Below, piece by piece: positions 1,179 to 25,800 of a stretch of 64,000 nucleotides of DNA. The position numbers were made by a program, and so were the translations under genes. Origin of the DNA: Sphaerolaimus hirsutus (lineage: Eukaryota > Nematoda > Chromadorea > Monhysterida > Sphaerolaimidae); contig OZ038460.1 in the NCBI GenBank assembly GCA_964036195.1, positions 12,403,504 through 12,467,503 on the forward strand. The letters run 5' to 3'. The notes beneath the pieces are model-generated. The model made no database searches, was not told where the DNA came from, and saw only the letters and a list, made by a program, of their open reading frames with translations. Numbering within the stretch: position 1 is the stretch's first letter; each line of letters begins with the position of its first letter.

Positions 1179-4100
1179 ATGGAGGCCGGCTGCGACCTTG
1201 TCAAATCTGGCGTGCTGCGCGTTCGCGTCGGTCGCCACCGCGCTCGGAGCCTATTCCGCCTGGTGCCAATGCCAGAACCTGTATAATGTCATCCAAAGCT
1301 CTGTACACTCGCGTTTGCCATTTTGCAGGGCATTTTACATGACTTGACACTTTGCTGACATTAGGCATGGTCTGAGATTGCCCCCTGGTGTTCCCCACCG
1401 CATGGTTCCGCACGAGGAACGTCCGCCTGTACTCGGTGTGCGGCGGGACGCGCGGCCAGCTGCTGGCCGTGTGCGACGACCTGGCGCGACCGGACAAACC
1501 GCCGCTGCGGGTGCACCTGGCGCCGGTGCGCGACGCTCGCCGCGCCATCGCCGTGAACTATGGCGCTGTTGTCTCCGGGCCTGAGCGCGCGCCGCCGCCG
1601 CCCGGTTGGTTGGTACTGGTGTTGGGACCCGAACCGCGGTTCCATGCATTTTTTGGAACCGGAACCGAAGTTAATAACCGAACCGGAACCGAAAATTTTG
1701 TGTTGCCGAAATCTTTTAGAACCGAAAATTTCGAATGTGTTTATGTATTCCTTCGTTTTCCCGATGCGGTGGCGACTACAAATGAAGTGTCCATTCGAAA
1801 TTCCCAACCCTAGTTGGGACTGCCAGTGCTTCCACTGGTCGCTCCCAGTTTCACCAGCGCTGACAAGCTTCTGATTTCACTCAGCAGGCAACGGAGACAA
1901 TTGCTGCCGCGCGATTCAATGTGGAAGTAGGCGGCAAGGCTCTGGGCTTGTTTTCGAATTCTTGGGTCGGTCGCACTCTGAAGTTGAGGATTGGCTCGAT
2001 GAAATTCGATCACTGAAGAAACCGATGAGAAGCCATATGAATGGAGGTTTACACTGTTTCTTACATACATTTAGAATTTTTCATTGTGCAAGAACTTCTA
2101 ACTTATTTTATTGTCTCTGGTGCCAATCCCGAAACCTGTAAAGTGTCATATGTCATGCCAAGTGTCAATTGTCATGACAAATGTAAAGTTAAGTCTCATT
2201 TGTCATGACAAATGTAAAGTAAAGTGTCAATTGTCATGCAAAGTTCAGTAATAAAATCTGTTCTTTTTTGTTTTGATTGACATTTTGCATTACATTTGTC
2301 ACTTTCCTTTATAGGGTCTGGGAGTTCCCCCTGGTGACACTATTTACTTCTGCCCATACTCAGGTGTGCAACCACTTCTCGTCTCTGTGATTGACAACCT
2401 GGCATCGCGGCAGCTAGAATTATCTGGCCAGTTTTATTTATCATTTGAGAACAGTGCCCTGTGCTTGTATGATTGCTCTAAGCTGGATGTGCGACTGTGT
2501 GTGCCCAAACCTGATCTGCACAGATTTGAAGTATGTGAAACGAAAATTGCAGCTGATGTCAATAGGTTGTTCCTACTTCAAGTTTACAGGTGAGGCAACT
2601 ATTTCAAACTTTGATTTCCCTCACATTTTTTTGTCTGATATTTAAATATTCTTTCCTCAATTGTTAGGGACAGCACTGACAACAAGAAAAGAAAAAAGTT
2701 AGTCAGTCTAAAGCTATTCTCTCGCCAGGGGCAAAGACTTCAAGCAGAAATGGATGCATTCATGAGTGGGATTACCCATAGACAACAAATTGAGGTAACT
2801 GGGGCTCATTACCAAAAGAATATTGAGAGGAGTACCAGTCACGAGCCACAAAAGAACAAGCGGATTGGTAATCTTCAGACCTTTATCCATAGGAGCTTGC
2901 CAAGTCTATTGGATGCTTGTTCCATTCACTCAGCCAGTGTTCAAAGTGTTGCTGATCTTGAGTTTGGAGAACCAGAAAACAGGTAACATGTTACAATACA
3001 TCCATGTGCACATTAGAATAATACATGCTGTTTGGCCATTTATAAGTACAGGGGTGTGCATCTTCAGTTAACACTGGAAAATCGCAATAGCTTATGCTAC
3101 GATTGAGCTATCATGATGAAATTTTGACACGATAGAGTAGACTCCATAGGACACCTATTCTGAAGTTTGCAGCCCAAACGGCCACATTTTGGGTCAGTTG
3201 TGGAACACACAGTTTTTTTGTGTAATTTTGTGACTTGGCGTCACCCGTTGCTTGTTGTTCATTGAGTGGAAGTGTTTCAAAAAAGTTGTTTTTTTAACTT
3301 CATATCACTCAACAGAATCACTACAACTATCACTCGATATATCCACCATCCTTCTCCAATATCATATTCAAATGGTTCTCGAAAGACAGGAGAGCTTTCA
3401 CCCTGATCTCAGTGCTCAACTCTTCCAATGACTCCTTAATCACCTCAATCAACATGTCAACTGTGTCAAATGTTGTATTTTTGCTGGAGACAAGCTGCTT
3501 GACATGTCCCCATAACCAGTGGTCACAGATGCTCGGATCCGGTGACTGTGCCAGCTGTGCTGGCCATGTTGCAATAAACAGTCTGCATGCCATAACTCAC
3601 CCAAAATGTGGCCATTTGGGCTGCAAACTTCAGAATAGGTGTCCTATAGCGTCCGCTCTATTGTGTTAAAATTCCATTGTGATAGCTCAAGCTATTGCGA
3701 TTTTCCAGCGTTAACTGAAGATGCCCACCCCTGTACATATAAATCATGAACAATTTACGATAACATTTTCAACATTTATTCACTCACCACACACAGTGGT
3801 GCAGTGCATGCACCAGAACGGGTGCTGAGCGACGATGCAGTGCGCCGCCGCTGGTCTCAATTTGTAGCCGAGGCAGCTGCGGACGCAGCAAGTACGGCCA
3901 GTCAGTCTACACCTGACCTACGACGCCGAATTGCCACGTCTCACCACTCCACCGCTGCCGCCAGCAGGAAGCAGTACGTCACACTATCTCACGTTGAGGG
4001 CAAGCCACGTTTGCCACCTAGACCGGTATGTTTTTGTCACAGTTTATTCTAGACATGTGATGGAAAAAGCGCCATGACTTTGGCGCCAAAAACGTCATGG

Positions 4101-9849: not shown

Positions 9850-12800
9850 ATGATGGGCTCGTACGCGAACGACATCACTTCGCCCGAAGTGGAGGTCGGC
9901 ACCGACATCACTGGCGGCGGTATATTTGCCGATTCAAAGAGGTTCGGTTCTGATTTCCCCCACATTGTGGTGAATTTTCTGTGAGTCGTTTGTGTATGTT
10001 GCAGCCGCCACGCCGACCTGAAGAGTATGCTGGACAGCAACAAGGACAATATCAAGATGGAAGCGATGAAACGCATTATCAATGTTTGTTTACCATGTCT
10101 GGCTCTTTTTTGGAAATATTCCAACGTTTTCGGTAAGCGTAAACCCAACATTCTGATGTATTTTCGATCCTCACAGATGATGGCCAAGGGTAGAGACGTA
10201 TCTGAGCTGTTCCCTGCAGTAGTGAAAAATGTTGCAGGCAAAAACTTAGAGGTGGGCTTTTATTTCAGTTTTTTGTTATTTATGTTGGGCCAGGGGTCTC
10301 CAAGATTTTCGGGAAGGGCCCTTATGTGAAATTGGCAGCATGCCAAAACAGTTGTTAGTGGCCTCTACAAGAGCCAGGTTGTTGAAGAAAAAAACGTTTA
10401 TTTCCAACCCTCCATCCTGGAGACATTGTGTTGGGCACAGAGACATTTTTTCACCTGTAGACAAATTTTGCTGTGTTACGCGTAACACTTTCTTCTCAGG
10501 TGAAGAAACTAGTGTACGTCTACTTGGTGAGATATGCAGAGGAACAACAGGACCTTGCATTGCTTTCAATCAGCACTTTTCAACGTGGCCTGAAGGTGTG
10601 TCTGAAATTGTGGAATTTTTGTGGCTGATTTCTCACGGATTTCCACTATTTATTACTACAAATCACAAACAGGACCCAAATCAGTTGATCCGCGCCTCAG
10701 CGCTGCGTGTGTTGTCTTCCATCCGCGTGCCCATGATCGCCCCAATTTTGATGTTGTCCGTGAAGGAGTCCATGCGCGACATGTCGCCGTACGTGCGCAA
10801 GGTGGCTGCCCACGCCATCCCGAAGCTATACTCGTCGGTAGTTTTTCTTATTCTTGTGCAGGTTGACAGTGATTAAAATTGTGGCATCGCAGACTCGATC
10901 CAGAACACAAGGACCAGCTTGTAGAGGTGATCGACTACCTGCTCGCTGATAAGACCACGGTTAGATTGCATGCTATATTTGGATACTTCGAAAGTTCCAG
11001 AATCGACACGCGGAAAAATGTATGCATGCTTGGGACAGAAGTTTTGTCAGATCTGCCAAAGTAATATTTGTTGTTGTTTTTTTGGTGGGGTGGGGGGTAT
11101 CCTGCAGGCTAATGTAATTTTGCATCCTGTAATTTTTTAGAATTTTTTAAAAATACTGCGGCATGTATTGTTTCTGATTTCTGATAAAATGCTTACACTT
11201 TGCAGTACCGGTAAAGGGCACTGGTACTTACAATAAATAACAAAATTTATAAAAATTCTTTTGGGCGGCTCAACGATTTACAAATGAGATGGCCCGCTAT
11301 ATACATGCATGTGGTAACTATCAATTCTTCTCCACCCAGCTGGTGGTGGGCAGCGCCATGTACGCCTTCGCCGAGGTGTGCTCCGAGCGGCTGGAGCTGT
11401 TGCACAAGCACTACCGCAAACTGTGCCAGGTGCTTATGGACGTGGACGAGTGGGGCCAGGTGATCATCGTCAACACGCTCACCAGATACGCCAGGACCTA
11501 CTTCGTGGATCCCAATGCGGCTGTAAGTGTAGTTTTTGCACTGAAAAAGCTAGGTAGATAGCTGAAAATTTCCCTGGGGGGCTCGCGGGTGCAAAATATG
11601 CAGGCTTTTTCACGGCATAGTAGGCAAAAAAACGGAAAAATACGTTTAAATAGGTTAAAAATAGCGAAAAACCGTTCAAAATTGTCAGAAAAGGTATACA
11701 GCCATGTATGTCACCGAAAATAGCAATTTTGAGGTTAAAATTTACAAACTGGAGCAAAAATTAGTGAGTTTGCGTGAAAATTGGGGAAAAGTTTGCTCCA
11801 GGTAGATAAATAGATAGCTAAGCGATTTGGTGACCCTTGTTTGAGTTATAGTGCCAATTTTTTAGTAATAACCAATTTGCCAACGGCGCGTTCACATGCA
11901 TACTCAAACTCATGCAAATCTCGTGTCTTAGGAATCTGATGACAAGGATCAAAATGGCGAGAAGGCGTTCTTCTCCGAGTCGGAAGAGAAGTCTGGCAGC
12001 GAGTCTGACAGCGCCGACGAGGACAAAAAGGAAAAGGACAAGCCGTATGAGATGGAACCGGATCTGAGGCTGCTGTTACGCAACACCAAGGCGCTGCTGC
12101 AAAGTAGAAACTCAGCGGTATGTCACTCGGTTTCGCTCTGGAATATTTATTAGCGAATTTTATAATTTGGATTTTTATCACAAAATAAATATTCTTCAAA
12201 TCAATAAATTACATTGTATTATAAATTATAAATGTATAAATTACATTGTTCATAATAATTTACACAATATACTGCGTGACTTCTAAGTTTAGGCAAACCG
12301 AAAGGTGAAAAAATCTATTGCACAGCAGTTTTTTGTAATGGAGACGTCTCACTATTGCTGGCAATTATTTTCAACATATTCGGGTCCCAAAAAGTTCGGG
12401 TCGGTCGGTTATCGCGTTTCGGGTCCAAAAACGGGCCCGATCGGGTCCCAAACCCACCTGACACCATAGCGCTGTAAATAACCCGTCACCGAGAAACCTT
12501 CCCAACCCAGGTAGTCCTAGCAGTGGCTGCCCTGTACTACCACGTGGCGCCGCGCGCCGAACTCTCGGTAATCGGGCGGGCGCTGGTGCGTCTGCTGCGC
12601 GCGCCCCGCGAAGTGCAGTCGGTCGTGCTGATGAACATCGCCACCATATCTGCCAAGCGACGGGTATTTACCGATATTTATGCTATCAGCAAAGTGAATC
12701 CGCTTTTGCCTGGGTGCTTGTCTTTGGTCCGCCTTTTCTTTTGGCTGGGTGAGAAAATGGAGACTTGAATGGGATGGTTTGTAGTGAAAGCGTCGCCTAG

Positions 12801-15800
12801 AAGGTCGTGATGGCTTCCAAAAACCAAAAAACAACATCACCACTGTGATTCGCAATTTTTCTCACCCAGACAGTTCTGTCCCTTTTTAATTTTAATCAGT
12901 CAGTTTTGAGTGCGTTCTAACTGTGATGTTCTCTAACGCACCGTCACTTTAACTGCGATTACGGTATCCAGTGTTTTATTTACTATGCGACCGTAACACG
13001 CGTGGCAAGGTCGTGTGTATACTCGGCGGACCGCAAAGTATGTGCAGAATCCTACCATAATTTAATGAATAAAATCTTGTGATAAATTTCGTAATCAATT
13101 ATTCCATAGTAAAACTGAAACATTATGAAAAAAACTGTAATATTTTTGGTTCATTATTCAGATGGATTATGGTAGGTTTCCGAACTAAGTATGATGTCCG
13201 CCGAGTATCACTACAAAAAATGCCCTTGTGCAACTCTGCATGTTGTTTCTTTCTCGCATCCCTCTCCCCATCGCAAGCACATTCACGATGTCATTTTTTC
13301 TAGCTTATTTTTTTAATACGCAGAACATGTTCGAGCCGTTTTTGAAGAGCTTCTTCGTTCGATGGAACGATCCGACCTACATCAAACTGCTTAAAGTCGA
13401 AGTCCTCACTAATTTGGCCACGCAGATGAATATAACCATCATATTGCGCGAATTTCAGGTGACTTAAATTTTTACAACATATTTTCACATTAGCGCCACG
13501 AAGTAACGATGGCAAACCATTTGGAAAAACTAAAGTGTACGAATTTTTGCAATAATAGTTTTCGGATTTGGAATTTTTTGGAATACTAGTATTTTAGATT
13601 TTTTTCCCATTAAATTAGTGCATTTTCGAATTTTTCTGCTGAATTTTTTGCGTTTTTCCTAACTGTTACAGTGGACACATGCTCACATATGGACACACAT
13701 ACACATTTAAGTTCTGCTGTTATGAAAATAGGTTCATGTGAAATCAATGTTCTGAATGGTGTTTCTACATTTTATACACAATTTCAACCAAAAATACCGA
13801 AATAAATGTGAAATCAAAAAAAATTCAAATTTTAGTATCCCATCATGACCACTCACCCCAACATCGGTGCGCCCCGCAGACGTACGTGCAAAGTTCGGAC
13901 AAGGAGTTTGCGGCGCGTACGATCGACGCCATCGGGCGCTGCGCTGCAAATATCGAAGAGGTGGCTGACGTGTGCATGAACGGACTGGTGGCGCTCATGT
14001 CCAGCAAGAATGGTCGGTTGTTTTGGTTTCGGGTGATGAGGCTACTTACTATTTAACTATAATACTGCCGTATTTCCTCGAAATACCACCAGGGGGGGGG
14101 GGGTAATTTTTTCAGAGTGCGAATTTTGAGGGGGTATTTCAAGGGGGGATTATTATTTCGCCAGAAATTTTCGTGAATGACCGTAGGAAAGAAAAGCCTA
14201 TTGCATACTAAAATCTGGTAATAAATGCGACCAAAGAGGATATATTTGGACGTAGCATCAACGCGCATCGCTACACAAACTAGTCTGTGTGTAGCAGCGA
14301 TGAAAATTGTCCATATTTAATACTTTACATTGCATACATAAATGATGTACTTCATTCCAGACGGGTGTATTTCGAATGGGGGGGGGGGGGTATTTTCCTA
14401 AGCTGTTGCTTTGTGATCAAAAGCGGCAGCGCATGTGCATCGCGTACTCTGTTTGCTGTTTTGCTGGAATCCATCTAATTACTATTCCACTACAGAGACG
14501 GTGGTCGCCCAGAGCGTGGTCGTAATCAAGCGACTGATGCAGTTGCAATCAGCACCACCCAAGGACATCCTGATAAAAATGTCTCGTCTATTGGACAGCG
14601 TGGGCGTGCCGGCGGCGCGCGCCAGCATCGTGTGGCTCACGGGCGAGTACTGCAAGGAGGTGCCCACCGTGGCGCCCGATGTGCTCAGGAGAATGGCGAA
14701 GACGTTTTGTAATGAGGTAAAACATTGTTTTCGCCATTTGTCAATGATTTTTCAAATTGTATTATTTAACAAAATTGTATTATTTAACAAAATTGTATTA
14801 TTTAACAAAATCAAAAGACAAAATTTTTGGTAGCGATTCACGAGGTATTGAGAAAAAATTTCCACACAAAGTCGACATAAAACTTCTTTGAGCGGAAATC
14901 ACCACTTATAATTCTATATCATATCTCCACAGCCATTCAGATGTCCACAGATATGACTAGGGTGGCAGAATTTACCGTACCGTACCGCATTTTTGGGAAA
15001 TTTACCGTACCATACCGTTTACCGCACTTTTAGAAATTTACCGTACCGTACCGCGTACCGCATTTTCCAAAATTTACCTTACCGTACCGCGTACCGCACT
15101 CATTTACCGCAGAAAATGCGGTAAATTTGACTCAGATTGACCTTAAATATGCCAATTTAATGGCGCACCGCACACTCAAAATTTTCAAGTGCAGTTCGAA
15201 CGTTTTTGAGTTCTGCCAAGGCGGAACTCCAAGTGCAGTTCGAACGATTTTTTGAAGGATTTTTAGGGTAATTTTTTGGACATTTGAACGGAGTCCGGAC
15301 GAATTCGTACACTTTTCGCTGATTTGCGTGTCATAACATTTCCACGCAGCAAGTTTCAAAATGATTGGGACACTTTCAATTCCGCCCTTGACTTTCAATT
15401 CCACCCATTAGAGAAGGTTGTTGTGAGAAACACATCTCACTTATCTTGCCAAATATATTTGTGAAAAAAATTTTATAGGTAGATCTAGGCTTTGTCTTCA
15501 AAAATGAATAGAGAATTTTTGTAGTAATATCCACTTGTTTTAAAGATATTGAAGTTCACCGTGTGGCATATTTGTGTAAACTTAAACTGAATTCCACCCT
15601 CTAGAAAGTGTCCCAATGTTTTCTTGCCTAGATGGCGCACCGCACACTCAAAAGAGTGCAGACATTGTTCAAACGCTTTGTGCTTTCCGAATTTATTCGG
15701 CCCGTGCACAATTCGAGGCAATTCCGCCATGCATAAAAAGAGTGCGGACATTGTGCAAACGCTTTGCGCTTTCCGCCCTTTCCGAATTTATTCTGCCCCT

Positions 15801-18800
15801 GCACAATTCGAGGCAATTCCGCCATCGTCAAAGTGTTCGAACGTTTCATGTGCGGAATTGAAATCGAGGGTGGTTCGGACGTTTTTGAATTCCACCCCCG
15901 ATTTTAATTCCGCCCTTTTGAATTCCGCCCTTGAAAAAGTGTTCGAACTGCAACTGAAAATTTGAGTGTGCCGTGCAACATTGATGACAATTAATGTGGT
16001 GTTTTGAAATTTTTTGCGCGCGAGCGCGCAAATTTCACAACACTGTTTTCCTGATTTGAAGCCCTTTCATTTCATTGATATAAGTCATGATTTACATTAG
16101 TATAATGTGTTTATAAAATCAAGCTGTGTGCTTCAACACGCTCTTAAAGTGTAAATTTCACATACTTTGAGCAATTATTCAGCACTTTTAGCAATTTTTC
16201 TTTCTTTTCTTCCTTCTACACCTTGAATAAACCTATATATTGAGCCCCTACATTGTGGGTAATGGAATTTTATGTCATCATACTGTTATCATGTTATTAA
16301 GTCCATTTATCAAATTGTGTCATTGAATTTGGTGTCAATTTATGAAGTAAAAGTTGTCTGTAGTCCGGCATTGATACATTTCTGACAATAGGAAATTTAC
16401 CGTCCCGTACCGTACCGCGTACCGCACTTTTCAGATTTACCGTACTGTACCGTTTACCGGAAAATTGAAGATTTACCGCACCGTACCGTTTACCGCAAAA
16501 TAGAAAATTTACCGTACCGTACAGTTTACCGCAAGGCCGTACTGTCTGCCACCCTAGATATGACAACACGTTGTGTACCACGATTTCATTATCTGTACTC
16601 CCTTTCTGGGTCATTAAATTTCTGGGTCATCATTTTCAGTTTTAAAGAATCTATTTTTTTCAAATCCAGCGGCTACAAATAAATTGATATTTCCATCCCT
16701 AATTCTCATGTCATGTGACTTTCATCCATCATATTCATAAAAACTTCAGCAATTCCACCTTTTGCAGGCTGATGTAGTACGTCTGCAGGTGCTCAATCTC
16801 ACTGTGAAGCTGTTAATCACAAATCGCGAGCAAACTGAGCTCCTAGCTGAGTACGTGTTCAAATTGGCCCGCTATGACAACAGCTACGATGTGCGCGATC
16901 GGGCGAGATTTCTGCGCAATTTTGTTTTTGAGCCACAAAATGACCCAGATGGCAAGTTGGCCGCCATGGTGGAGAAGGTGTTCTTGTCGTCTAAACCCGC
17001 ACCCGTGCCCGAGTCTCTTTTTAAAGGTGAGCTTTGGCCGCTTGGAGAAATGCATACGTATTGCCTCGAAATACCCCCCTTGAAGCCTCCTCAAAGTTGC
17101 AGTATGAAAGAATAAACCCCCGGGGGGTATTTCGAAGAAATACTGTATATCTACAGAGGAATGGGATATTGACAGATAAACCTATGAATTTATAATTTTG
17201 GTATTTTTTGTCATTTCATGGTGAGCCATTGTGTCAAAATTGACCGCCTTGGAACGAATAGAACACCGTCACGATGTTTCACTGGCAATAATTGGTTTTC
17301 AACGCAGATAGGGACGAGTTCCAACTGGGCACCCTGTCGCACTACCTGCACCAGCGCTGCACCGGCTACGAGCACCTGCCCGACTTTGCTGTCGAGCAGC
17401 TAGAGCCGGCTGTGCGCGATGTGGACGGCTTTCTCACTCCGTCTAGAGATTTTGGTGTGTTTGGTCGCTTGCTGGCTGCTTCACCACTGGTGGAGTAGAT
17501 CCATGGCTCTGGTATTGGCGCTAAAAAGTGCACCGCGAGGCACTTTCGAAAACCTACCATACACCCGATAGTCTATAAACTCATTCAAAGTGTTGATATT
17601 GTCTATAAAAATTCAAAAATTGAATGGGTAATTCTAAAATTTCGAATCTACACATTTACAATGTTATAAGAAGTTTCTTTATTATAAAAAAAACATTTAA
17701 CTTTTAAAAATCTAAAATGCATGGAATGCATAAGAACAGTGAAGTCGAAAAAATTGGAATGAAGAAAACATGTAAATTCATTTATCAAAACGGTTATTTT
17801 TCCATACGTGATGCAATCGGTAGCCGTCGTTGTCGTATGGTTCAAATCTCACTATCGACAAACGCGGTAGTCTGCGGCTTTTTCCGACTATCTGTTTTTT
17901 TATATTTTAATTTTCTGTTTCCACGACAGGCGCATCTGAAGCCCCTTCGCTGGCGGGCGGTCACATTTCTACCGGAGGCAAACAGGATGCGAAGCGAGCA
18001 CTGGACAATTTCTATTCGGATCAGACGAGCTCCTCAGCCGAAGATGAGGCATCTTCTGATGTGAGCGATTCCAGCAGTTCAGGTTTGCTCATTGGCATTT
18101 TGCCGCGTATTTATTTACCCGTTCAAAAGCATCGTCTCTGAGGGGTCAGTATCAGGGAGGTTGCCCCTTCCCCCTATATAAAAACGCTCCAGCTGCCCCC
18201 AAATTTACACCTTCGAAGGAGCGATTTACCATCCCTATGAACCCCCGGAGGGGTCCAGGTTCACTAAACCCCTGCATCGTCATTTTATATCGCAGGCGAG
18301 CAAACATCGAGCGCTGAAAGTGATGAATCGTCAGATTCTGGCTCGAATGCTTCCGAATCAGAAAAGGAAACTGAAAATGTCAAACCGAAGCGTTTGCCGA
18401 ACGCTGGAAAAATTGCAACAGAGAAGAAAACGCTAGACGGGCATAAGTTGCGAGGGAAAAAGGCGGAAAAAAGTGACAAGAAAGCGGCACAGGCTGACCT
18501 GCTATTGGATCTGGATTGTGTGTCCGCTATTGATACCGTTTTTTCATTTTTACTTTTTTTGAGTTGATAAGATGCTTTTCAGTTGGTGACGATCAGGGGC
18601 CGGTGGCCGGCGCTGTTCCCCCTGCAGCTGCCGCTGCTCATCCACTGCCTACTACCTCGCCGACGAAGAAACCAGCGCCACCTGTGCAAGAGTCTGTTGC
18701 GGAAATGGTGAGTGAGGGGTCATCAGGCGGCAGTCCCGAGCCCTGTAAAGTGTAAAGTCAAGTGTCAAATGTCTAAAAAATGTCAATCGAAACAAAAAGA

Positions 18801-21000
18801 GAAGATTTTATTACTGAACTTTGAATGACAGTTGACACTATGCCTGACAGTTTGCGTGACAATTGACAATATACACATTACAGGGCTTGTGACTGTCACC
18901 AGGGGGCCGCGTAATATGACCGTCACTGACCGTGTAAAATGTTATGTAAAGTGCTAAAAGTCATGTGAAATACCCTGTAAATATCAATGGAATTGCCCAT
19001 TCAATGTTCTTCATTTAAGGGGCCTAGATGGGAACACCCACTAAGCTAGACTCGTAGCGACCCTGCAAACGTGTTGAAATTCACCCACCCACAACAGCCA
19101 ACCGCACCAGCGCAACTCGTACCCAGTGACACAGTTGAACTGTTGTCAAAGATGAACGGCGGCGGGGTCTCAGCGCATGGGAAATTCACGCGCGCGCCCA
19201 GTTTGTTTGCCGGCGACATGGTCGCTATGGAGATGGTTTGGAGAAATGACTCGTCGATCGATGTGAAGCAGGTGCTGCTCAGCGTGAATGTCAGTAGATT
19301 TTTATTTTTGCATATTTTGTAATTTTGTAGGTTATGTAATTTGATTTTGTATTTCGGTTTTGTGAACTCAGAAACTACCGTCTGGTCTACGTGTGGCTGG
19401 TCTTCCTGATTCTGATGGGGAACCGTTGGCAATTTCAGCCGGCGCCACGCGGACAATCACTATTGGCGTAAATTTCGCCGATGGCACACAAACTATCGAG
19501 CTGCATGCTGCCATTACGTTGGTTAAATTGGAATATAAATAGCGTTTTTCGAAAAAAGAAATGCAGTTGTAATTTTGTATTTATTCTTGAAAATGTTCTG
19601 ACTACTTGGTGAACTTTTTATAATTTGTCGGTTTTCAGGTGGGACGAGGACAGCAGTTCTAGCAGCCAAACGACACACACCTTGCCGCTGACGGCGCCCG
19701 TGGGTGAGCAGTTGCAGCCCGTCATGTTGGGCGAAGCGCAATTCTCTACCGAAAGAGGTTTGTTTTCGTAAAGCCCCAGGAAAGATACAGAAAATAATTT
19801 TTGGGTGGGGCGTTGTGGAGGGTCTGTGCCGGTGCGCATGTAGGCTTGGTGCCCATGTAGACCCGGTGCGCATGTTGTACAACCGTACATGCGCACCGGT
19901 CCACATGGGCACTAGGTTTATATGCATGGGCTCTACATGCGCACCCAGTCTACATGAGCACCGGGTTAGTGTTGATGAGCACCGGATATATTTACATGGA
20001 CACCGAGTTTACATGCACACGGAATCCTCGCTGTTGTGAATACTTACTCACCCTGGCAAACCCCAGGCCACATGCGAAGCTTGGGAAACTTTTTGATCCG
20101 TGTTTCCCTACCGTAAATTTCTTTCGGTATTTTCTTTCTACATTACATCCCGCTAGTATATTTACAGAGTACCGAAAAGACGTTGAAAAATCTAACTTTT
20201 CTAGTGATATTGAACTAGTCAGAAACTAGTGATATTCTGATAGTGAAAAAGTATTCCTAATGTGATTGTGCTAAAGTGCCATAATTTTACACAAAAATGT
20301 TCTACGTGCTTGTGATTGTCATGAGTTTTTGGACAGATTTCTGTTGGCTATCAGATTTATTTCACGCTTACTGAACACACAGCTCGGCTGTCTGGCCTGA
20401 ATGAAACGAGCGGCAAATTTAAATTGAAAACTGGTATGAGTGTGAAAACTCCTGCGCAGTTGCACAATGCCATCTATACAGTTGCCAATGTCATTGAGAC
20501 TACTGTTATAGGTGAGAGGCCTGCATCTGAGGTGGGTCAATAGTTTCACATAGAGCCCACACACACTAATTTGAATCAAAATAAGTTTCAACTAAATTCA
20601 ACTAAATTTTGTCTATTTATGTGATTTCAACTTTCCTATGTGATAGAGCATAGTTGTTTTTTATCGTGACAGTTAATTTTGATTTTTTTTCTGTTTAGTG
20701 TGATGCTTAAATTTTTTTCTGTTTTCTGTTGACATTCATTTGACACGAAATTGCAATGTCAACTAGTGTGTGTGGGCTGATGAATATAAATTAGATTTTC
20801 AATTGGTACTTGCCTAACTAATGTGTGACCGATTGCAGTTACATTATGCTGGACGCACCATATCAGGAAAATCTCTCTTGCTTATCACCATAGAGCAGTT
20901 GGATGATAGTGGCGAAGCCAAATTGACTGTTAACTGTGATAAAATTGTGATATGCTCTATGCTGTTCAAATCGTTGTCCTTTGCACTGGTGCATTCTTGA
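9850..21000 (+). CDS. AP3B1: AP-3 complex subunit beta
   Basis: Large subunit of the AP-3 coat, which sorts cargo to lysosomes and related organelles. Exons: 9850-9941, 10005-10083, 10177-10251, 10500-10595, 10673-10833, 10893-10959, 11340-11522, 11932-12117, 12511-12663, 13324-13458, 13880-14012, 14496-14716, 16768-17026, 17308-17454, 17930-18082, 18296-18517, 18583-18707, 19098-19289, 19372-19517, 19639-19757, 20383-20531, 20839-21000. Phases close to 1084 residues, the family length. Exons 2-13 encode the HEAT-repeat trunk ([37 protein letters not shown]). Exons 14-17 encode the acidic/Ser/Lys hinge with DLLLDLD. Exons 18-22 encode the ear, with SGLNETS. The symbol follows the vertebrate gene; AP3B1 and AP3B2 cannot be told apart here. 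The acceptors of exons 20 and 21 are my least certain joins. Introns are full of MITEs, including a 1.6-kb hAT-like element in intron 12. Confidence 0.95.
13018..13208. repeat. MITE, ACTCGGCGGAC ends (copy 2)
   Basis: About 190 bp, closely related to the element at 5277-5470. Ends are TATACTCGGCGGAC and GTCCGCCGAGTAT. It lies in an AP-3 beta intron. Confidence 0.7.
14066..14400. repeat. CCGTATTTCCTC element, incomplete right end
   Basis: The left end is GCCGTATTTCCTCGAAATACC followed by poly-G. The body has TTATTATTTCGCCAGAAA. The right end stops in poly-G with TATTTTCC and lacks the last bases of the inverted repeat. Confidence 0.5.
14950..16564. mobile_element. hAT-like 1.6-kb element with TACCG arrays
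   Basis: The element is 14958-16556 with a perfect 8-bp duplication GATATGAC on both sides. Ends are TAGGGTGGCAGA and TCTGCCACCCTA. Both subterminal zones carry TACCGTACCG arrays in the same orientation (15.0 and 16.4-16.5 kb). Between them lies a nested unit bounded by GCACCGCACACTCAAAA and TTTTGAGTGTGC-type ends (about 15162-15975). The palindrome TGCGCGCGAGCGCGCA is at 16015-16030. It encodes no transposase, so it is non-autonomous. Confidence 0.85.
17055..17148. repeat. Short CCGTATTTCCTC-family copy
   Basis: Only about 95 bp: CGTATTGCCTCGAAATACCC at the left, GGTATTTCGAAGAAATACTG at the right. It is inserted in AP-3 beta intron 13, just after the donor. Confidence 0.55.
18724..18902 (-). 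mobile_element. Introner-family copy, reverse orientation, in AP-3 beta intron 17
   Basis: The element spans 18727-18899 with CAG on both sides. The left end GCGGCAGTCCC lacks GT. The right end, read on the minus strand, begins GTGACAGTC. It is therefore inserted opposite to the gene and lies 20 bp inside a pre-existing intron. Confidence 0.75.
19840..20025. repeat. Degenerate CATGYRSACCGG minisatellite (AP-3 beta intron 20)
   Basis: Nine or so imperfect units of about 18-24 bp built on GTGCGCATGTAGRCY / TACATGNGCACC. Part of the array is inverted about 19870, where GCGCATGTTGTACAACCGTACATGCGC forms a hairpin when trimmed to its arms. Confidence 0.5.
20554..20778. repeat. MITE with AGCCCACACACACTA ends
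   Basis: AGCCCACACACACTAATTTGA at the left is mirrored by TCAACTAGTGTGTGTGGGCT at the right. It belongs to the same end-type as elements at 43286-43445, 47440-47692 and 63254-63468. It lies in an AP-3 beta intron. Confidence 0.6.
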
Positions 21001-22846: not shown

Positions 22847-25800
22847 ATGTCTGGCCAAAACTCCAACAGCGATGCCACAGAGGTAAAATATACAGTGATT
22901 AGGGTTCCAAAAATCTTTGGGAGATCTATATTTTAAAAATTTCAGAAAATCTAAAAAATCTAATATTTTTCATTTTTTCTCCTGTTTTTTTTAGAGCAAA
23001 AATATAATAATTTAATATTTATTTATTTTTTTCCTCGACGTTTCTCAGGGAGATTTTCTGAGATAATGTTTAATTATACTTACCGTATTACCTCGAAATA
23101 CCCCCAGGGGGTTTATTATTTCGCCAGCAAAATTTGAGGGGGGATAATTCGAGGGGGGGGTCTATTATTTCGCCAGAAATTATCGGAAATTCCCCATACG
23201 CAGACGTAGAAAAATTGAACAATCACATAGATTTATATGTGTTTATAGGCATATATTACTGTATATACACAAAAACCCTTCCCTAACGTCACTTAATCAT
23301 CAGTTTTAACGTGTGTTCTGCATTGTACAGATCACAAACTGCGGTATTTGTCATGTACGTTCACGTTACACTCAATCTTAGGGGGGGTATTTCGAGGGGG
23401 GGGGGGGGGTTTATTATTTCCTCAGCCGAAATTTAGGGGGGGTATTTCGAGGGGGGGGGGGTAATTCAAGGGGGGGGGATAATTCGAGGTAATACGGTAG
23501 ATATTTTCTGAAAAACGTCCATTTTTTGGAACTAACCGTGAAAAAAAATTTTTCTCCACCTACAAAGTGAAAAAGCATTCAATTGACCGTAGCCGTTGGC
23601 AATGGACTTGAAATCTGAGTATGAGCGCAAGCAGGCGGAATGGCTGGCCAAAGAAGCCCAATTGCTTGCAGAAAAGCAGCGCGCCCTCGAAGAGAAAGCC
23701 AAGGTGTGCACTGTTTAGACTTTAGAGTTGCTTTAGAATTATTTGCTTGAATAATAACAAAAGTGACAAGTTATGCTGTGAATTAACCATATTTCCTGAA
23801 ATGTGTTGATAGAAAAATGCTTGCAAATTTTGATGAAATAATAATTCCCCCTCTTGAATAGCCCCCCCTTCAAAAAGTCTGGCAAAGAAAATAATTCCCC
23901 AGTAGAATTATTCAAGCAAATACGGTATCTGAAACAGTATGTACGGCGGCTGACCGCCATCCGTAATCTAAATTCTCAATTGCAGACTGAGGAGCAGCTG
24001 CACACGGTCAAGAAAGAACGTGATGTGGTTCGCTCGATCGTGGCCGAAATGTCCACATCGGTATATGCTCAATGCTAGGGTTGGGAATTTCAAAATTTTC
24101 GGGTTCGGGTATCGGGTCCTAAAAATTTCGGGTTGGGTATCGGGTATCGGTTCCAAAATTTTTGCAGGTTTCGGGTCCGGGTATTGAGGTCGGGTATCGG
24201 GTTGGGTTTTCAGGTCAAAATGTCGGGTATCGGGTTTCGGTTCCAAAAAGTGTGTGGGTATCGGGTTCGGGTCGGGTTCCCAACCCTACCCAATGCAAAA
24301 GATGCTACCTATAAACAGCTATTCATCTAAACCGTGCATCACACGGTCGCATCGCAGATAAAACCGACTGCCGAGTCCATGGTTCCGCTGGCGCCGCCGC
24401 CGCCCCTCTACGACCCGGAAAACGTCAAAGTCATTCTCGAGAAGGAACACCAATGCCGCTACTACACAAAGTTCCGGTTCATGCAGCACACTTCCAGTAG
24501 TACGGCGAGGTTCAGGTAAATACACGCGCAGAAAGGATTTTTCAGTGAGGGCGGATGTATGGATAAAAATGGATGATGACCCAACGCAGGCGCGAGCAGC
24601 TGGCCAAGGAGAAGCTTGAGGCGGGTGCAAAGCACGCAGGCGGGGCAGCCAGCAGACGCTCGTCCACTACGGCGCACAGCAGGGGCGTGTCGCCGTCGGG
24701 CAGCCACCACGCACTCAACAAGCTGCACGGTGCAGGCCTGCCGGACACCAAGCACGCGCCCAGGTGCCAGTCCCAGACCCTGTAAAATGTCAAATGTCAT
24801 GCAGCGTCAAAAGTCATGGAAAATGCCCGGTAAGATTGCAAACGTACGTTTGCCATTTTACCGGGCATTTTACACGGCTTTTGACACTTTGCATGACATT
24901 TGACATTTTACAGGGTCTGGGACTGCCCCCAGGATGTCCAAGCGGCAGTCGGCCCCGCACGCGGACGTTCTCACCCCGGAGAAGAAACAAGTGAACAGAG
25001 CGGCGCCAGTGAACGCCAGCAGGCCCACCAGAGCGGCCAGCGCCAGCCGGCCACCCAAGGCTGAAGTCAAAGCGAAACAGGCAGCCGGCGCGCGGCGAGC
25101 ATCGCACGCTGCGGCGCCCGGGCCGCAGTTGCACAATACTCGCATCGCACTGGCGACGGCGCACAGACAACCACGCAGCGGCGTCAAAGACAAAAGCAAT
25201 GCTACTGCGGGACGGCAGAAAGCTGCAGGTGGCAGTGCCAAGCCCTGTAAAGTGTGAAGGAAAGTGTCAAGTGTCAATTGTCATGCAAAGTTCAGTAATG
25301 AAATGTTGTTTTTGTTTTGATTGACATTTTACATGACATTTGACACTTGACTTTACACTTTACAGGGCTTAGGACTGCCCCCAGATGGGGTCAGACGAAC
25401 GAAAGGAGATGGTGCACATGCACAAGATTTAGCATTAGGCGTTCGGGAGGCACTTTTCGCATTGGGTAGCAGTGGCGACGAGAGCGAACGAATTCACGCG
25501 ACGGAAAATGACATAGAGCTCCAATCACCAGTGCGCTTTGGGGGGGGGGGATAAAACATTTTACGGGCAACATTTTAGGAGAACCAGCGCACCGTTATTA
25601 TGTTGCGTTTTGGCCGATTTTGCAACCTTGAATAACAGTACTGTTTACTTGCCCAATGATTCACAGCTTACGATACTTTCTAAAAACATAAAGGAATGCT
25701 ACACCATAAAATTGGCTGCAAAGACAATCAAAACAAGAAACCTAGTTAGAGAAACTGTATGCTTGTGTGCAAAATTTTTGCATTTGACCACTGCATAAGT

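Follow-up and report, generated by a model that had tools for sequence, protein, structure and literature searches.

Candidate introns from a palindromic transposon: a probable introner family with CAG or CTG target duplications in the nematode Sphaerolaimus hirsutus

Two neighbouring introns predicted in a coiled-coil gene of Sphaerolaimus hirsutus begin and end alike, and both are bounded by the same triplet. How did they arise? An earlier note, made on the window (the whole stretch of DNA analysed, 64,000 nucleotides), had described them as exact copies of an element that creates introns. We find that both are indeed copies of one kind of element, but they are not exact copies: introns 24764-24932 and 25229-25384 can be aligned only in parts, with 79-92% identity over stretches of 23-67 bases. 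The most probable explanation, to which we assign a probability of roughly 0.86 from the sequence, is that both arose by insertion of one kind of non-autonomous DNA transposon (a MITE), palindromic over most of its length and acting as an introner. The inverted ends and the duplicated CAG bounding both introns were confirmed, as were the limits of the two elements (24764-24929 and 25229-25381). The intron limits agree with the junctions given in the earlier note, and the parts are arranged in the gene as follows.

24590..24763, + strand: predicted exon 5' of copy 1, as judged from the sequence; the upstream intron lies at about 24516-24589 (GT...CAG)
24761..24763, + strand: CAG target duplication, left copy, which stays in the exon
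24764..24929, + strand: putative introner element copy 1, 166 bp, a nearly perfect inverted repeat with tips GTGC / GGGG
24930..24932, + strand: CAG target duplication, right copy, the predicted 3' splice site of intron 24764-24932
24933..25228, + strand: exon separating copy 1 from copy 2, predicted from open frames
25226..25228, + strand: CAG target duplication, left copy, which stays in the exon
25229..25381, + strand: putative introner element copy 2, 153 bp, with tips GTGG / GGGG
25382..25384, + strand: CAG target duplication, right copy, the predicted 3' splice site of intron 25229-25384
25385..25554, + strand: last exon, with the stop codon, predicted from open frames

When each element is removed together with one CAG, the reading frame is restored as had been claimed, in phase 2 at the first junction and in phase 1 at the second (open frames of 65/108 and 108/56 amino acids, respectively). 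Both elements fold on themselves, with hairpin z-scores of -20.2 for copy 1 and -11.4 for copy 2. The next best genome matches to intron 24764-24932 are 92-94% identical (among 40 candidates scored of 2426). A genome search for an empty paralogous site matched only the gene itself for either junction. Pfam gave no match for the window gene, and both of its junctions failed the codon-score coding test described below; for the window copies we therefore rely on what the family as a whole shows. Taken by itself, this gene makes a weaker case for an introner family than does the Na+/K+-ATPase gene, to which we return below. Degenerate repeats of the TTCGGGTATCGGGT type are present between predicted exons of the coiled-coil gene, at window positions 24061-24300.

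Where the GT tip of the element lies beside a CAG on the gene strand, the insert starts CAG-GT and finishes CCCC-CAG. These tips and flanks are consistent with the scheme put forward earlier, in which the element tip would supply the GT and the second (duplicated) CAG the AG of the intron. The spliceosome would then remove the element plus the second CAG, leaving both the length and the frame of the mRNA as they were, and the palindrome, by folding, may place the two splice sites close to each other. A point against this scheme is that the donor, GTGCC, resembles the usual GTRAGT only weakly. If the GT and the AG do have these two sources, an element could be spliced at its borders in just one orientation relative to the target. 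In the CTG...CTG orientation there would be no AG at the boundary, and exonic copies of this kind should be lost by selection.

Three more copies had been noted in the window. All three are real, but the CAG duplication is found at only one of them, the other two being flanked by CTG.

1263..1384, + strand: further element copy, CTG/CTG duplication
2120..2330, + strand: further element copy, CTG/CTG duplication
18727..18899, + strand: further element copy, CAG/CAG duplication, tips GCGG / GTGA, apparently within an ordinary intron of a gene predicted from reading frames

Because their duplication is CTG, the copies at 1263 and 2120 lack the AG that a duplicated CAG supplies, and the copy at 1263-1384 could be an exonic insertion unable to splice at its own duplication. 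The copy at 18727 begins 19 bases past an apparent donor (GTGAGT) at 18708. An Adaptin_N exon is present at window positions 10250-10873, and the adaptin gene, perhaps AP-3 beta, would extend over 10250-19542 according to its reading frames. The surroundings of copy 1263-1384 are GC-rich, and part of the + strand there is in open frame.

A genome search of the kind that the earlier note had suggested, made here with the element ends, revealed a dispersed family. In the 348-Mb genome, 24-base patterns found 667 exact sites of CAG plus the left end (345 + 322) and 619 of CTG plus the left end (304 + 315), while reversed-pattern controls gave 0 for the CAG type and 0 for the CTG type. These counts, together with the hairpin z-scores, exclude a chance origin. 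The excess of CAG sites (667 vs 619) is not significant (p 0.19), which argues against the selection step proposed above, as the loss of exonic CTG copies predicts more CAG than CTG sites genome-wide. In the loci that were read, the flanking 3-mers were identical in 74 of 108 end pairs and not identical in 34; all 74 identical flanks were CAG or CTG. Mismatched pairs of ends agree in 37%, since one of these two words stands at so many flanks. The 74 copies measure 113-379 bp, with a median near 180 bp; 49 of them carried the tips GTGC and GGGG, one at each end, and 52 carried GGGG at one tip, the opposite tip usually being GTGC. As loci had been selected by the GTGCC tip, a fairer figure for GTGC/GGGG is that of the bystander copies, 15 of 26. 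CAG targets were preceded by C in 36/53 cases and followed by G or A in 38/53, a context resembling the proto-splice site of intron studies.

The samples behind these figures are non-random: the CAG loci were the best matches to copy 1 plus the head of the CAG-site list, and the CTG loci were the head of the CTG-site list plus bystander copies. The numbers of CAG and CTG copies vary by analysis (53/13, 53/22 and 54/23), as more loci were fetched or another flank length was required. In the first of these analyses, 25 of the 91 elements had flanks that differed from each other or were of another kind, and these were excluded from later tests.

Nearly all copies compared (62/64) had a near full-length partner, and the median nearest-copy identity was about 90% in this small, partial sample of the family. 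Such a value does not support very recent activity, and we do not retain the earlier description of the family as active or recent. One copy is nested within another, and CAG flanks it at either end. Three further copies aligned there are continuous at the site and, where the alignments cover it, do not read CAG. The joined proteins of two loci on different contigs (L045 on C1 and L075 on C2) are nearly the same, and their elements share 98.8% identity, suggesting segmental duplication as a way in which some copies spread.

If copies in the CAG orientation can be spliced, do they lie between coding segments? The open frames of the retrieved loci served to train a codon model, and a setting of 75 bases with a score above 2 was chosen from a grid of 18. 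Both flanks were coding in one frame in 11/54 CAG copies read in the sense direction, compared with 1/54 for CAG-antisense, 2/23 for CTG-sense and 0/23 for CTG-antisense (CAG-sense against all other arrangements, 11/54 vs 3/100, Fisher p 6.6e-4); 43/54 CAG-sense copies failed the test. Wherever both sides of a CAG-sense copy passed, their frames agreed (11/11, with one third expected by chance, p 5.6e-6). Over the nine trained-model settings, frame agreement in the sense direction was 20/22, 11/11, 5/5, 19/23, 8/8, 6/6, 12/13, 8/8 and 6/6, and for the antisense of the same copies, in matching order, it was 5/14, 1/3, 0/0, 4/10, 1/2, 0/0, 4/5, 3/3 and 0/0. Open frame lengths lead to the same picture: 40 residues or more were open on each side in 35/53 CAG-sense vs 23/53 CAG-antisense arrangements (Wilcoxon p 0.007), and in 9/22 CTG copies on each strand.

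The strongest single case is a Na+/K+-ATPase gene (locus L031), where the element lies within an exon, past residue 43. Residues 4-81 of the joined exon (78 residues) align without gaps to Na+/K+-ATPase (PDB 8zyj, E 1e-21), and the joined protein matches PF00689 across the junction, over residues 11-79. Searching with the joined DNA gives an unbroken match of 95 bp (86% identity) at C1:9562754-9562848, on the same strand and some 8.4 kb downstream. In protein searches, this neighbouring paralogue on contig C1 encodes residues 1-80 uninterrupted (80% identity, no stops), and another paralogue on contig C7 encodes residues 2-67 uninterrupted (59% identity, two extra codons), whereas the match of the element-bearing gene is split into 1-43 and 42-80. 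The simplest history would be that the element inserted into this gene after the gene duplications, and the paralogues argue for insertion into a previously uninterrupted coding sequence. When the joined flanks of ten exonic junctions were searched against the genome, this was the one junction (1/10) for which an empty paralogous site was found; the other nine matched at their own loci only. The earlier note had proposed a search for intronless orthologues or alleles; counterparts without the intron were found for the ATPase gene, in the form of two uninterrupted paralogues, but for neither window junction. The region G000:C1:9553940-9562914 holds the neighbouring paralogues, with the same exon carrying the element in one and free of it in the other.

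A second protein gives a similar picture. The joined exon of locus L016 matches the Oscp1 family (PF10188), residues 25-74 corresponding to profile positions 1-50 with the junction at 33 (E 3.4e-19); this is a Pfam match only, with no match in the PDB. Alignment of the ATPase and Oscp1 proteins thereby indicates that the element ends lie at the intron borders in these two genes. Pfam matches above the cut-off were obtained for 3 of 28 junction proteins (25 of the 35 joined junctions plus three from the codon-score analysis), namely these two and L071, and all three cover the junction, that of L071 extending just 5 residues beyond it. L032 matches sirtuin-6 in the PDB, the match stopping 8 residues before the junction. 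Two resemblances seen by eye were rejected, that of L006 to PTPMT1 (no PDB and no Pfam match) and that of L038 to STARD10 (no Pfam match). With dispersed copies, inverted ends and the apparent gain in the Na+/K+-ATPase gene, the earlier idea of an intron-gain family using 3-bp CWG targets holds up well.

It might be argued that exonic elements are simply left unspliced, their host genes being pseudogenes or genes that tolerate the insert. The window gene, of low complexity and without a Pfam match, would suit this explanation, as would some CTG-duplication copies that likewise lie between open frames. However, an orientation bias of 11/54 vs 3/100 would not be expected for insertions that are never spliced, and the frames of the Na+/K+-ATPase and Oscp1 genes are open on both sides of the element. 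We therefore regard this explanation as unlikely.

Far less probable is the idea that the elements inserted into introns that already existed. This seems to be the case for the copy at 18727, which appears to lie inside an older intron, but the copies at 24764 and 25229 and those in L031 and L016 have no intron sequence beyond the element and the CAG duplication, and two Na+/K+-ATPase paralogues are intronless at the site. We give equally little credence to excision of the elements from the DNA of some cells in place of RNA splicing. Programmed DNA excision in other organisms likewise joins precisely at short repeats; the GT...AG borders and the dependence on CAG orientation, however, fit splicing. 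Our preferred reading is still that of transposon insertions which would be removed as introns. More tentatively, and with somewhat less than even confidence, we consider that the target preference of the transposase, C-CAG-G/A, may equal the classic proto-splice site; with GT at only one tip, about half of all exon insertions would then be ready-made introns at proto-splice sites.

Which transposase could have moved these elements? A CWG target suggests the NuwaI group among the PIF/Harbinger-related transposons, and mobilisation may have occurred in trans by a transposase of this kind (NuwaI-like, with a CWG target). NuwaI belongs to the PHIS (PIF/Harbinger-ISL2EU-Spy) superfamily, duplicates a 5'-CWG-3' target, has TIRs that usually begin with GGG, and is restricted to animals in the survey concerned (PMC4482050). 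The present element is like NuwaI in its target duplication (74/74 identical flanks being CAG or CTG), and unlike it in that one tip is usually GTGC, not GGGG, and in that its copies, at 113-379 bp, are too short for a transposase; the available sections of that survey make no mention of intron formation by NuwaI. The PIF/Harbinger likeness suggested in the earlier note is thus borne out in the target type, with NuwaI the closest, but no transposase was tied to these ends. The genome contains 163 matches to PF13359 (Harbinger-type). An autonomous element with these ends, which had been proposed as a search target, was not found in the parts read of two such loci (2.8 kb and 1.8 kb): the 2.8 kb of L092/L091/L095 contained no end sequence with up to 4 mismatches, and the 1.8 kb of L093 contained one chance-like end match with up to 5. 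Most PF13359 matches listed have TGA stops within them. In L091, the one such copy that was read, these stops apparently reflect ordinary short introns and not introners. Between them, L091, L092, L093 and L095 contain Harbinger-type (PF13359) transposases of at least two families, apparently with ordinary short introns; one family has numerous copies with close to equal scores among the matches listed, and CGTCGC-rich stretches lie nearby.

Two observations concern the host in general. A spliced-leader search, which could have supported a placement in the nematodes, gave 0 matches with up to 2 mismatches. On the mitochondrial contig (C762, 14,754 bp), the COX1 stretch at 1905-3239 always uses TGA for Trp (14 TGA, 0 TGG) and uses AGA 10 times; this codon use is in line with the invertebrate mitochondrial code.

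The introner elements of Micromonas and Aureococcus, described by Huff et al. in 2016, are reportedly MITE-like, with one splice site of their own and the other from the target duplication. Both are algae, unlike the present animal host. According to the available text and legends of Gozashti et al. 2022 (PMC9860276), introners form families whose introns resemble one another and have TIRs and/or TSDs, and they usually leave mRNA length unchanged; a type with its own 5' splice site and a 3' splice site from the TSD has already been described (Fig. 2C legend), the TSD in Aureococcus is 8 bp, and among animals and land plants only two groups, both animals, are given as having introners. Compared with the introners in those portions of the paper, the present element is similar in that it brings the GT while the TSD would give the 3' splice site; it differs in its duplicated target (CAG or CTG) and in its animal host, and 43/54 sampled CAG-sense copies fail our coding test. 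The family is not named in the titles and abstract openings of the literature on introners that we found, in a search that had most subscription journals outside its reach; one paper in that literature, on fungi, mentions introners and Harbinger together. We regard it as a probable introner family whose type is familiar; what makes it stand out is the animal host, the CAG rule and the paralogue pair with and without the intron.

The question of how introns originate is an old one, and many candidate gains are at hand in this genome. The orientation of the CAG provides a simple rule predicting which insertions can be spliced, and the neighbouring Na+/K+-ATPase genes are a natural pair for dating a gain. 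Together, the candidate gains, the CAG rule and the two ATPase genes, one carrying the intron and the other lacking it, open splicing, selection and target choice to direct tests. If the transposase does prefer the proto-splice site, then it would be transposon targeting, and not selection for splicing, that gives new introns in this animal their proto-splice-site signature.
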